NCBI GenBank assembly: GCA_028688955.1
Contig: JAQTXD010000002.1
Coordinates: forward strand, 1 to 64,000
Source: Desulfuromonadaceae bacterium
Lineage (GTDB): Bacteria; Desulfobacterota; Desulfuromonadia; Geobacterales; Pseudopelobacteraceae
Length of the DNA stretch: 64,000 bases
Reading direction: 5' to 3'
The notes under the pieces: model-generated
Told to the model about the DNA's origin: nothing
The model's database searches: none
Seen by the model: only the letters and a program-made list of their open reading frames with translations
Made by a program: the position numbers and the translations under genes
In this document: piece after piece, positions 42,010 to 48,014 of the stretch
How positions within the stretch are numbered: position 1 is the stretch's first letter
Layout of the letters: each line of letters begins with the position of its first letter

Positions 42010-42038
42010 TTGACTAAACTGTGCCAATCAACTAAACT
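42010..42038 (+). promoter_or_regulatory. Putative promoter for the tandem riboswitch transcript
   Basis: TTGACT-17 nt-TAAACT, about 30 nt before the first aptamer. Confidence 0.5.
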
Positions 42039-42066
42039 GCCGCACTGTCAATGCAGACTGCAGAAC

Positions 42067-42151
42067 GATACACGATAATACTAAACCACCTGTGAAGGTG
42101 GGGCGGAAAGCCTACAGGGTCTCATCGAGATAGCCGGGATGCCGAAATATC
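42067..42151 (+). promoter_or_regulatory. GEMM-I class riboswitch aptamer, copy 1 (predicted 3',3'-cGAMP type)
   Basis: CACGATAATACTAAACCACCT-GTGA-AGGTGGGGCGGAAAGCCTACAGGGTCTC...GAGATAGCCGGGATGCCGAAATATC; P2 stem with GNRA loop; A at aligned position 20 (42080). Confidence 0.9.
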
Positions 42152-42183
42152 GAACAGATATCAGGCGGACCGGCTTCTTCTTT
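42132..42183 (+). terminator. Rho-independent expression platform of riboswitch copy 1
   Basis: AGCCGGGATGCC...GGCGGACCGGCT followed by TCTTCTTTT; overlaps the 3' part of the aptamer. Confidence 0.7.
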
Positions 42184-42209
42184 TCAGTTCCGCACTGAAT
42201 TTGCTGCAC

Positions 42210-42294
42210 GATACACGATAATACTAAACCATTCGCGAGAATGGGGCGGAAAGCCTACTGGGTCTCTTCGAGATAGCCGGGTTACCGAAATATC
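42210..42294 (+). promoter_or_regulatory. GEMM-I class riboswitch aptamer, copy 2 (predicted 3',3'-cGAMP type)
   Basis: CACGATAATACTAAACCATTC-GCGA-GAATGGGGCGGAAAGCCTACTGGGTCTC...GAGATAGCCGGGTTACCGAAATATC; P2 stem covaries with copy 1; A at aligned position 20 (42223). Confidence 0.92.
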
Positions 42295-42328
42295 ACTCAA
42301 GATATGCGGTAACCCGGCTTTATTTTTT
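42275..42328 (+). terminator. Rho-independent expression platform of riboswitch copy 2
   Basis: Perfect AGCCGGGTTACCG/CGGTAACCCGGCT stem followed by TTATTTTTT; its 5' arm is part of the aptamer. Confidence 0.88.
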
Positions 42329-42432
42329 CCGGGAACTGTTCAGGGAGGTGATGCGATACCGGCAGGCAGTTGTGACGACACGATGTAGAAATATCGTGGC
42401 GCAGCATGAACAGAAAAAAAGAGGGGGCACAT

Positions 42433-43629
42433 ATGGTAAAAATCATCCGACAACGGATTCTATACTTCTGCCTCGGACTGCTTACTCTCACCGGTTGCGG
42501 CAGTTCTTCACCAACTCCGCAGATAACAGCAGGCATAAGCGTAGGAACAGTCGCACGAAGTGCAAGCGGAGTGAACGGGCTCCAGATAACAGTAAATAAC
42601 GTCACATACACGACTGATAATGCCACCGTAACGCGGAACGGTGACCCTGCCGCACCTGAAGATATCAAGCCGGGTATGCGGGTAACGATCACCGGAAATA
42701 TGGCAGGCTCAGAGTGCACGGCAACCGGAATTGATATAAACGAAGAGCTGGAAGGCGTTATTGAGCGGATTGATGGTGAAGCCGGGAGCCTGACCGTACT
42801 CGGTCAGAAGGTACTGATACAGGACCTGACTGTTTTTGACGGAGTAACCGGGATTTCCGAACTGCATGAAGGTCAGCAGGTTGAAATCCACGGACTTTCA
42901 GGGGCAGCAGGAGTCATTGAAGCCACCAGAATAGAGGTAAAAAATACTCAATGTGATCACTATGTATCAGGTCCGATCAGCAACTTTGACAGTATTGCCA
43001 GGACCTTTGCCGTACGCAATATCGTTGTCGATTATGCCGCCGCTGCCACACTCCCTGTACTGCGGCTCGAAGATGAACTCGTGGTCAAGATACAGGGGAC
43101 ATACGTTAATGGAGTAATGGAGGCGTCGCGTATCAGCCTCCGGCACAATCGCCTGGAGCGCGGCCATGCGGAACAAGGCGGGCTGGTATCAGAGTATGAT
43201 GAAATAGACGGCACCTTCACTGTCAACGGACAACCGGTACAGCTCACACCAGCTACGATGTACCACCACGGTGCTCGTAGTGAGCTTGCTAACGGGGTAA
43301 AGGTCGAAATAAAAGGCGACGTACAGAACGGTATACTTACCGCCAGCACAGTTAATGTCGATGGCGACCACGGGCTTCCGGTCCAGGCGGCCATTATAAT
43401 ACCGGCCTTTGAAGCCGCGCCGGTATCACCCTGTTCGACCGGCAGGCAAATCTATGACTCGCTCTGTTCCAACTGCCACATGATGGGCGGCTATGACCCC
43501 TCCGGTTCCGCACCGAACCTGATTGGCAAAGGCGGCGCCGTCGCGGATAAATTCGCTATTGGCCATAAAGGCCTCAGCATTACCGCAACACAACGTACAG
43601 AACTGGCACTTTTTTTAAACGCGGAATAG
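42433..43629 (+). CDS. Lipoprotein with DUF5666-like repeats and a C-terminal mono-heme cytochrome c domain
   Basis: Lipobox LTGC; repeated GxxxxxDxxxxTFxVxxxxV units; C-terminal CSNCH heme site. Confidence 0.85.
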   Translation: MVKIIRQRILYFCLGLLTLTGCGSSSPTPQITAGISVGTVARSASGVNGLQITVNNVTYTTDNATVTRNGDPAAPEDIKPGMRVTITGNMAGSECTATGIDINEELEGVIERIDGEAGSLTVLGQKVLIQDLTVFDGVTGISELHEGQQVEIHGLSGAAGVIEATRIEVKNTQCDHYVSGPISNFDSIARTFAVRNIVVDYAAAATLPVLRLEDELVVKIQGTYVNGVMEASRISLRHNRLERGHAEQGGLVSEYDEIDGTFTVNGQPVQLTPATMYHHGARSELANGVKVEIKGDVQNGILTASTVNVDGDHGLPVQAAIIIPAFEAAPVSPCSTGRQIYDSLCSNCHMMGGYDPSGSAPNLIGKGGAVADKFAIGHKGLSITATQRTELALFLNAE

Positions 43630-45081: not shown

Positions 45082-45717
45082 ATGTCAATGCAACCTGCCA
45101 AGCTCATCGCCTGTCATGAATGTGATCTGCTGCAGCGTGAAATTCACCTTCCCACCGGAGGGGAGGCTCATTGCAGCCGCTGCGGTGCTCTGCTGTACCG
45201 CAGCTCTCCCCGCAGTCTTGACAACTCTCTCGCCTTTGCACTGGCCGCAGCGATACTGTTCGTGATTGCAAACATATATCCTCTTCTCGGCATTGAAATG
45301 AAGGGGAACCCCAACGCCACTCATCTCTTTGGCGCCGTTCGCTACCTCTGGGATCATGAAATGCATCTCATCGCTGCCTTGACCTGTATCACAGCTGTCC
45401 TGGTACCGGCTCTCGAGATTATGATGATGATTTATCTCCTTCTGCCACTCCGATTCCGTGTTATTCCGGCAGGAATCCCCCTCATACTCAGAATTCTGCA
45501 GGGTATCAAGCCATGGGGCATGGTTGAAGTTTTCATGCTCGGCATCCTTGTTTCAATCGTCAAACTAAGTGACACCTCTACCATCATTCCCGGGGTGGCT
45601 CTCTGGTCGTTCGGTGGATTGACGCTGATGCTTGCTGCAGTCGCTTCCTCGTTTAATCCGCGAGATGTATGGAACAGGATTGAGCAACGGGTCGAAAACG
45701 GGGAATATAATGAGTGA
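45082..45717 (+). CDS. PqiA-like membrane protein (first half)
   Basis: CHECD...CSRCGALLYR zinc ribbon and four TM helices. Confidence 0.85.
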   Translation: MSMQPAKLIACHECDLLQREIHLPTGGEAHCSRCGALLYRSSPRSLDNSLAFALAAAILFVIANIYPLLGIEMKGNPNATHLFGAVRYLWDHEMHLIAALTCITAVLVPALEIMMMIYLLLPLRFRVIPAGIPLILRILQGIKPWGMVEVFMLGILVSIVKLSDTSTIIPGVALWSFGGLTLMLAAVASSFNPRDVWNRIEQRVENGEYNE

Positions 45718-46351
45718 GGAGTGGGTGACAGCTGCAGAACGTGGCCTCTGCTCGTGCCATGTGTGCGGACAGGTATCCCGGTTGGTCAATAATGGCAATT
45801 CCGGGCGCTGCTCCCGGTGCGGAACCACTCTTCATGTTCGAAAAAAAAACGGTATCGTGCGCAGCTGGGCGCTGCTCATCGCCGCCTACATACTCTATAT
45901 TCCCGCGAATCTCATGCCGATCATGAATACGGGCTCGCTATTCAATTATCGCAGTGACACTATCCTGAGCGGTATTATTCATCTCTGGAAGACCGGATTC
46001 AAAGGCATAGCAACAATTGTATTCATCGCCAGCATCATGGTGCCCTTGTTCAAACTGATTGCACTTACCCTGCTGCTGATATCAGTGCAGCGGCGATCAA
46101 GCTGGCGAATCGGTGAACGTACGCGTCTCTTCCGGTTGGTGGAATTGGTGGGACGGTGGTCGATGCTGGATATATATGTCGTAGCCCTCGTGGCAACACT
46201 CGTACAGATCCGTTCTTTGGCCACGGTGACCGCCGGGCCAGGGGCCATAGCCTTCGGCGCAGTCGTTGTACTCACCATGTTCAGCGCCATGTATTTTGAC
46301 CCTCGACTTATCTGGGACCCACTGCAAAAGAGAGAAACATATGATAGATGA
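45710..46351 (+). CDS. PqiA-like membrane protein (second half)
   Basis: CHVCG...CSRCGTTLHVRKKNG zinc ribbon, LIAAYILYIPANLMPIM; overlaps previous ORF. Confidence 0.85.
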   Translation: MSEEWVTAAERGLCSCHVCGQVSRLVNNGNSGRCSRCGTTLHVRKKNGIVRSWALLIAAYILYIPANLMPIMNTGSLFNYRSDTILSGIIHLWKTGFKGIATIVFIASIMVPLFKLIALTLLLISVQRRSSWRIGERTRLFRLVELVGRWSMLDIYVVALVATLVQIRSLATVTAGPGAIAFGAVVVLTMFSAMYFDPRLIWDPLQKRETYDR

Positions 46352-48014
46352 ATCTCAGAACCCCGATTTCTCAACCATTCCCGATGCGGTATATCAACCG
46401 CGCCGTCGCCGGCGCCTCCAGCTGGTCTGGATTATCCCGATCGTCGCCGCACTTATCGGCGCCTCACTGGCAATCAAATCATACGTGGAGCGCGGCCCGG
46501 TTATCACCATATCCTTTCCCAACGGTGAAGGGCTCGAACCGGGTAAGACGAAGATAAAATACAAGGAGGTACAGATTGGAGAGGTTAAGGGCATAGCAAT
46601 CGCCAAGGACAGGTCACATGTTGTAGTGACTGCCGAGCTGACCAGGGAGGCCGAGCGGTTTCTCGTTGCCGATACCCGCTTCTGGGTCGTACGCGCACGA
46701 ATCACCGGAGGTAATGTATCCGGCCTCGGAACGTTAGTGGGGGGTTCCTACATCGGGGTGGATGTAGGAACATCCGCCGTCAGAAATAGCACATTCAAGG
46801 GGCTTGACCGCCCTCCGGTAGTTACGATGGATGTGCCGGGACGTCAATTTGTCCTCCATGCAAAGGATATCGGTTCGCTCGATATCTCATCACCACTCTT
46901 TTACCGCCGCATGCAGGTCGGTGAGATTATGGCGTATGAGCTGGATAAAGACGGGAGCGGAGTGACTCTTAATGTGTTTGTCCGGGCTCCGTTTGATCAG
47001 TATGTCAAGCCGAATACGACCTTCTGGCAGGCCAGCGGCATTGACATAAGCCTTGATGCAAACGGGGTCAAGGTAACGACTGAATCTATGCTTACAATTA
47101 TGCTGGGAGGCATCTCCTTCCAGACTCCTGAAGACAGGTTTGATGCTCCGCCCGCACAGGCAAACAGCGTTTTTACTCTCTTTTCCAGCAAGGAAGAGGC
47201 GTTGAAACGTCCGGATACCGTCGTCGAGAATTACGTTCTGGTCTTCAAGGAATCAGTTCGCGGCCTGGCAGTTGGTGCCCCGGTGGATCTTCGGGGGGTG
47301 ACCGTTGGGGAAGTCAGCAAAATAAACCTTGAGCTGGATCCGCAGCGCAAGCAATTTTCAATGCCGGTCGAGATTCAGTTTTACCCGGAACGGCTGCAGG
47401 CGCGGTACCGGAGCACATCCCAGCAGCGAAAACCGGTGGCTACACGGGAATTGCTTAATTCACTGGTTGAACATGGATTTCGTGCCCAGCTCAGGAGCGG
47501 CAATCTGTTGACCGGCCAGTTGTATGTTGCGCTTGATTTTTTCCCAAAGGCCGCCACAGCTAAAATGGATTGGAGTAAGCCGGTTCCCGAATTCCCGACC
47601 ATCGCCGGAAGCATGGAACAATTCCAGGCATCGCTCATGCAGATCGTCAATAAGATAGACAAGCTGCCGATGGAGGAGCTTGCCGGTGACACACGGCAGG
47701 CTATCAAGACTCTCGACACAACCCTGAAAAATACTGACCAGCTGCTCAAGAATGTTGACGCCGTTCTCGTTCCCGAAGCACGCTCCATGCTGACAGAGAT
47801 ACGCAAATCTCTTGATGACGTGCGCAGTACGCTTGCCGAGGCACGAAAAACCATGGGTGGTGCTCAACAGACGCTTTCGGCTGATGCGCCGCTCCAGAAA
47901 GATCTTCGTGAAGCGCTGCGTGAAATGAATCGTGCAGGCCAATCGTTGCGCGGACTGGCCGATTACCTTGAGCGTCATCCGGAATCGCTTATCTGGGGCA
48001 AAAAGGAGAAATAA
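46341..48014 (+). CDS. pqiB: PqiB-like protein with multiple MlaD/MCE domains
   Basis: GPVITISFPNGEGLEPGKTKIKYKEVQIGEVKGI and repeated MCE segments; N-terminal TM. Confidence 0.93.
   Translation: MIDESQNPDFSTIPDAVYQPRRRRRLQLVWIIPIVAALIGASLAIKSYVERGPVITISFPNGEGLEPGKTKIKYKEVQIGEVKGIAIAKDRSHVVVTAELTREAERFLVADTRFWVVRARITGGNVSGLGTLVGGSYIGVDVGTSAVRNSTFKGLDRPPVVTMDVPGRQFVLHAKDIGSLDISSPLFYRRMQVGEIMAYELDKDGSGVTLNVFVRAPFDQYVKPNTTFWQASGIDISLDANGVKVTTESMLTIMLGGISFQTPEDRFDAPPAQANSVFTLFSSKEEALKRPDTVVENYVLVFKESVRGLAVGAPVDLRGVTVGEVSKINLELDPQRKQFSMPVEIQFYPERLQARYRSTSQQRKPVATRELLNSLVEHGFRAQLRSGNLLTGQLYVALDFFPKAATAKMDWSKPVPEFPTIAGSMEQFQASLMQIVNKIDKLPMEELAGDTRQAIKTLDTTLKNTDQLLKNVDAVLVPEARSMLTEIRKSLDDVRSTLAEARKTMGGAQQTLSADAPLQKDLREALREMNRAGQSLRGLADYLERHPESLIWGKKEK

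Follow-up and report, generated by a model that had tools for sequence, protein, structure and literature searches.

Two predicted cGAMP-I riboswitches in series in the leader of a DUF5666/cytochrome-type lipoprotein gene of a Desulfuromonadaceae bacterium

Several GEMM-Ib (cGAMP-I) riboswitches have been described in Geobacter. In Gmet_0970, the A20G change switches selectivity from cGAMP to c-di-GMP (PMC6456294), and Gm0970 is about 1600-fold selective (PMC8835794). For G. sulfurreducens, ON logic is reported for the pgcA riboswitch, the omcST riboswitch senses both cGAMP and c-di-GMP, and GSU2885 (omcAHG) is preceded by a tandem GEMM-Ib, where RNA disappears by the second riboswitch when gacA is deleted (PMC6456294). 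Serial arrangements are also known among c-di-GMP-I riboswitches. The serial riboswitches Bc3-5 of Bacillus thuringiensis give tighter, more digital control (PMC4759541). One survey counted more c-di-GMP-I arrays, 347 doublets and 12 triplets, than tandems of any other class (PMC9481103), and another found c-di-GMP tandems enriched in Thermodesulfobacteriota (PMC12452182).

Here we analyse a 64,000-nucleotide stretch of DNA from a Desulfuromonadaceae bacterium (the window, 64 kb). We conclude that it very probably carries two complete, independent GEMM-Ib (cGAMP-I) ON switches in series, in the leader of a DUF5666/cytochrome-type lipoprotein gene, with cGAMP made in the same cell. The locus has the following features:

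42010–42038, + strand: possible sigma-70-type promoter of the leader (TTGACT-17-TAAACT), 9/12 consensus matches
42066–42146, + strand: GEMM-I aptamer copy 1 with the P1 5' strand, RF01051 match, specificity base A42080
42132–42183, + strand: intrinsic terminator of copy 1, fold -26.3 kcal/mol, z -4.3
42209–42289, + strand: GEMM-I aptamer copy 2 with the P1 5' strand, RF01051 match, specificity base A42223
42275–42328, + strand: intrinsic terminator of copy 2, fold -30.8 kcal/mol, z -7.9
42406–43629, + strand: regulated gene, lipoprotein-like, three DUF5666 stretches and a C-terminal CxxCH (CSNCH), PF18914 E 5.9e-37

Two GEMM-I aptamers and their predicted ligand

Using cmscan with Rfam 15 on the 64 kb window, we found two matches to RF01051 (GEMM-I; c-di-GMP-I clan CL00126), one at 42070–42146 (copy 1; 43.5 bits, E 3.4e-5) and one at 42213–42289 (copy 2; 46.7 bits, E 5.4e-6), and no other Rfam family. 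Both scores lie above the gathering score of 35 bits, and the Infernal search thus bears out the original prediction of tandem GEMM-I riboswitches at 42067–42328. That interval contains both aptamers and both terminators, the P1 5' strand of copy 1 beginning at about 42066, and the spacing from copy to copy is 143 nt.

The P2 arms had been noted to differ between the copies and yet to pair. This is true of both, and compensatory changes in relatives agree with it. In an alignment of 30 A20-type aptamers from the window's genome and its relatives, P2 is 100% paired and four of its six pairs show compensatory changes. Taking the RF01051 structure together with a 5-bp P1, 89.3% of cells pair, versus 31–45% when the partner strand is shifted by 1–3 columns. 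Nine pairs are altered on both sides, all in P1 and P2, a result reached by 0 of 500 shuffles. Pairing is weakest at the outer end of helix 5, whose outermost pair (columns 57/79) is unformed in most sequences. Every invariant aptamer position of this alignment is retained in both copies.

At the equivalent of Vc2 position 20 (RF01051 consensus column 11 by our hand mapping of the Vc2 numbers), the Rfam alignment has A in each copy, at 42080 and 42223, the same bases that the original hand alignment had picked. The register is backed independently by natural relatives that differ at one base, AATACTAAACC vs AATGCTAAACC. Because these G20 relatives differ at position 20 alone, we ruled out a register error in the call. 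By hand mapping, Vc2 position 20 is A14 of the cGAMP riboswitch structure, and the flanking C21–G46 pair is the C15–G40 pair at the end of P2 in that structure. Molecular dynamics on the structure gives G8, A9, A11, A12, A14, C15, G40, A41, A42 and C75 as contacts of 3',3'-cGAMP (PMC6274999). All ten contact bases are present in each copy, so that the comparison with the published cGAMP aptamer comes out positive for both; the match to C75 supposes a P3 one base longer in the window copies than in the structure. In copy 1 they are:

G42074, A42075, A42077, A42078, A42080, C42081, G42106, A42107, A42108, C42142, + strand: contact residues of copy 1, by hand mapping

The same contact residues are found in copy 2. 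Since A20G in Gmet_0970 flips the preference from cGAMP to c-di-GMP, A at 42080 and 42223 predicts cGAMP, and the sequence supports the prediction that both window aptamers prefer 3',3'-cGAMP.

In Geobacter, 3',3'-cGAMP is known to be made by Hypr-type GGDEF proteins, and a candidate Hypr GGDEF synthase is present in the window's genome, which provides supporting context for the cGAMP-I class. The genome has 33 GGDEF matches. All but two of the proteins that we read have Asp, or in one case Asn, where Hypr enzymes have Ser. The first of these two (L039, on C77) is a receiver–GGDEF protein that adjoins hisS and has the Hypr Ser (GHMIGS...GGDEY). Among PDB entries it matches 6d9m best, a Geobacter Hypr GGDEF fusion (203 bits vs 147 for PleD), and it is a GacA-like candidate bearing the cGAMP synthase signature. 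The second (L091, G000:C160:442-738, reverse strand) has Ser with GGDDF and an N-terminal membrane and HAMP-like region. In its Ser with GGDDF and its HAMP-like N-terminal part it is like GSU1937, which is active in G. sulfurreducens as a second cGAMP synthase (PMC8835794).

Both aptamers might instead be relaxed sensors of c-di-GMP as well as cGAMP, which would put the gene under the two messengers together. In G. sulfurreducens, the omcST riboswitch is reported to sense both (PMC6456294), and in nearly all of the more than 30 GGDEF matches of the genome the specificity position holds an Asp of the c-di-GMP type. We consider relaxed sensing unlikely in view of A20 and all the contact residues of a selective cGAMP aptamer in both copies, and of the approximately 1600-fold selectivity of Gm0970 (PMC8835794). 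A preference of both copies for cGAMP is the reading that we carry forward.

Terminators and the proposed switching mechanism

Behind each of the two aptamers lies its own intrinsic terminator, which overlaps the aptamer: in each copy the terminator 5' arm is the 3' strand of that copy's aptamer (AGCCGGG...CCG). The lower stem of the copy 2 terminator has 13 uninterrupted pairs (AGCCGGGTTACCG / CGGTAACCCGGCT) and is followed by the T tract TTTATTTTTT. The stem of copy 1 is imperfect, with internal mismatches, and its T tract is interrupted (TTCTTCTTTT). In stepwise folds of the lengthening transcript, the terminator displaces the aptamer pairing once its 3' arm exists. Full-leader folds favour the terminator by about 17 kcal/mol in copy 1 and about 23 kcal/mol in copy 2 relative to folds with the terminator 3' arm blocked, these energies leaving aside ligand, tertiary contacts and kinetics. 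The ligand-stabilised aptamer and the terminator are exclusive because both need the same aptamer 3' strand. Since each aptamer 3' end is the 5' arm of its own terminator, both copies are predicted to be ON switches in series. Upstream of them, the promoter call is weak: it agrees with the consensus at 9 of 12 positions, and chance alone would place one site of this quality in the region.

In the mechanism that we propose, cGAMP from the GacA-like Hypr GGDEF enzyme and the GSU1937-like enzyme of the same cell would bind and stabilise the aptamer, holding its 3' strand away from the terminator and letting RNA polymerase read through; in cells lacking the ligand, the terminator would win. The two copies would form two checkpoints in series, and read-through would need ligand on both. 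Basal leakage would thereby be multiplied down, and the dose-response would be steeper than that of a single switch. The copy 1 terminator, on account of its stem mismatches and broken T tract, may leak and contribute less.

The same imperfect stem and interrupted T tract could be taken to mean that one copy only is functional and the other is a decayed duplicate. However, every invariant aptamer position is kept in both copies, and tandem or triple arrays recur before target homologues in other families of the order; we therefore think decay improbable and retain two working copies.

Glycine riboswitches have two aptamers on one platform, and the close spacing here (143 nt copy to copy) would suit cooperative binding by the two aptamers with one shared regulatory outcome. 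Such an arrangement is very hard to reconcile with a terminator built, in each copy, from that copy's own 3' end, and we give it hardly any weight. A glycine-type shared-platform tandem was ruled out on the same ground: each copy has its own terminator, and the copies are therefore independent units.

The target gene and related switches in the order

The product of 42406–43629 is a probable lipoprotein. Its CSNCH motif likely marks a c-type heme, and its C-terminus matches Cytochrome_CBB3 weakly (E 8e-4, under the Pfam cut-off). Downstream in the window, 45082–48014 holds two PqiA-family genes and then an MlaD-family gene, an ordinary set.

We found matches to the target gene in 17 of 58 related genomes, the window's genome counted. 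In the loci scanned, A20 switches precede target-gene homologues in seven further genomes, with three copies in G010, two each in G024, G047, G052, G054 and G042, and one in G043; several other target-matching loci that were scanned have no A20 switch upstream. The triple A20-type array of G010 lies at 997–1363 of L048. When named genomes were scanned with the target protein, no relative was confirmed. A 25-base pattern taken from copy 2 occurs in 16 stretches, all from Geobacter, Geobacteraceae, Desulfuromonadales or unspecified Deltaproteobacteria assemblies. The leader has no match among plasmids, and there is therefore no sign of plasmid spread. Serial cGAMP switches at the target gene persist across families of the order. 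A conserved DUF5666/cytochrome-type lipoprotein is thereby added to the cGAMP regulon predicted for Geobacter-like bacteria, and the link between switch and target points to a role in extracellular electron transfer for this uncharacterised family.

Within the window's genome (3.95 Mb), RF01051 has 15 matches, 13 with A20 and two with G20. Eight of the 13 A20 aptamers form four tandem pairs, on contigs C94 (the window's), C159, C180 and C181, where simple arithmetic for 15 sites in 3.95 Mb gives about 0.01 pairs within 250 bp by chance. As named by eye from the translations, the genes behind the other three tandems encode an RCC1-repeat-like protein (C159), a CxxCH protein with proline-rich repeats (C180) and a YkuD-like lipoprotein (C181, A20/A20). 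The C181 case is similar to the lipoprotein transpeptidase operon GSU0181-0183 of G. sulfurreducens, which drops 16-fold in the gacA deletion (PMC6456294). The second copy of the C159 tandem (L005, G000:C159:11895-11971) lacks a terminator-like stem after it and is followed some 75 nt on by AAGGAG and ATG; it may therefore act differently or be decayed. The two G20 (c-di-GMP-type) aptamers of the genome (L001, G000:C189:2862-2936; L002, C141:7327-7400) are 91% identical to each other.

Across the order, 123 of 141 genomes contain the A20 version of a 16-base core pattern and 10 contain the G20 version. Among the 150 matches listed for the core-pattern search, about 22 same-strand pairs lie within 350 bp. 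In a few relatives the proximal copy alone carries a natural A20-to-G change, which from their sequence would make mixed cGAMP-then-c-di-GMP tandems. At L079 (G055) and L081 (G094), both on the reverse strand, an A20 aptamer is followed by a G20 aptamer, 194 and 219 nt apart, and each aptamer has its own terminator-like stem behind it. The L079 tandem precedes a multiheme-cytochrome-like gene and the L081 tandem a YkuD-like lipoprotein gene; a gene similar to the latter has an A20/A20 tandem in the window's genome. A G20/G20 tandem is found in the window's own genus (L083 1498–1718, G024).

Specificity also varies at the target gene itself. A G20 switch stands at the DUF5666 gene in G039 (L052/L076) and G058 (L077), with an A20 switch about 0.9–1.1 kb upstream, before another gene. 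Thus, within one genus, the proximal switch at the target homologue is G20 in G039 and G058 and A20 in G042 and G052, and comparison of L052 1236–1311 (G039) with L054 and L056 (G052, G042) gives a natural A20-to-G change at this gene; the G20 form carries the Rfam label c-di-GMP-I-GGC (RF03167). Such single-base specificity swaps offer a ready-made test of position 20 in ligand choice and in vivo gene control. More tentatively, and with rather less than even confidence, we suggest that the tandem GEMM-I arrays of the order are tunable two-input devices, in which one proximal A20-to-G change would convert a cGAMP-only tandem of the window's kind into a cGAMP-then-c-di-GMP AND gate. A mixed-specificity tandem was not found described in the literature searched, which covered few subscription papers.

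Comparison with known systems

The window tandem is real, but the arrangement is already familiar, as cGAMP-selective A20 switches and tandem pairs are published for Geobacter sulfurreducens. It shares with Geobacter GEMM-Ib riboswitches such as Gm0970 and GSU1761/pgcA the GEMM-I fold, A20, the contact bases, an ON platform of the terminator type, control of genes for extracellular electron transfer and a Hypr GGDEF synthase in the genome. It differs from them only in the downstream gene, and the DUF5666 and CxxCH lipoprotein was not found named as a riboswitch target in the cGAMP literature that we searched.

The tandem of GSU2885 likewise consists of two serial GEMM-Ib riboswitches, which in that case precede an outer-membrane-cytochrome operon; the target gene and the organism differ here. 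With the tandem and triple c-di-GMP-I riboswitches (Bc3-5) it shares complete serial riboswitches, each with its own terminator, and a more digital response, which is predicted here. Those that have been characterised, however, sense c-di-GMP and not cGAMP.
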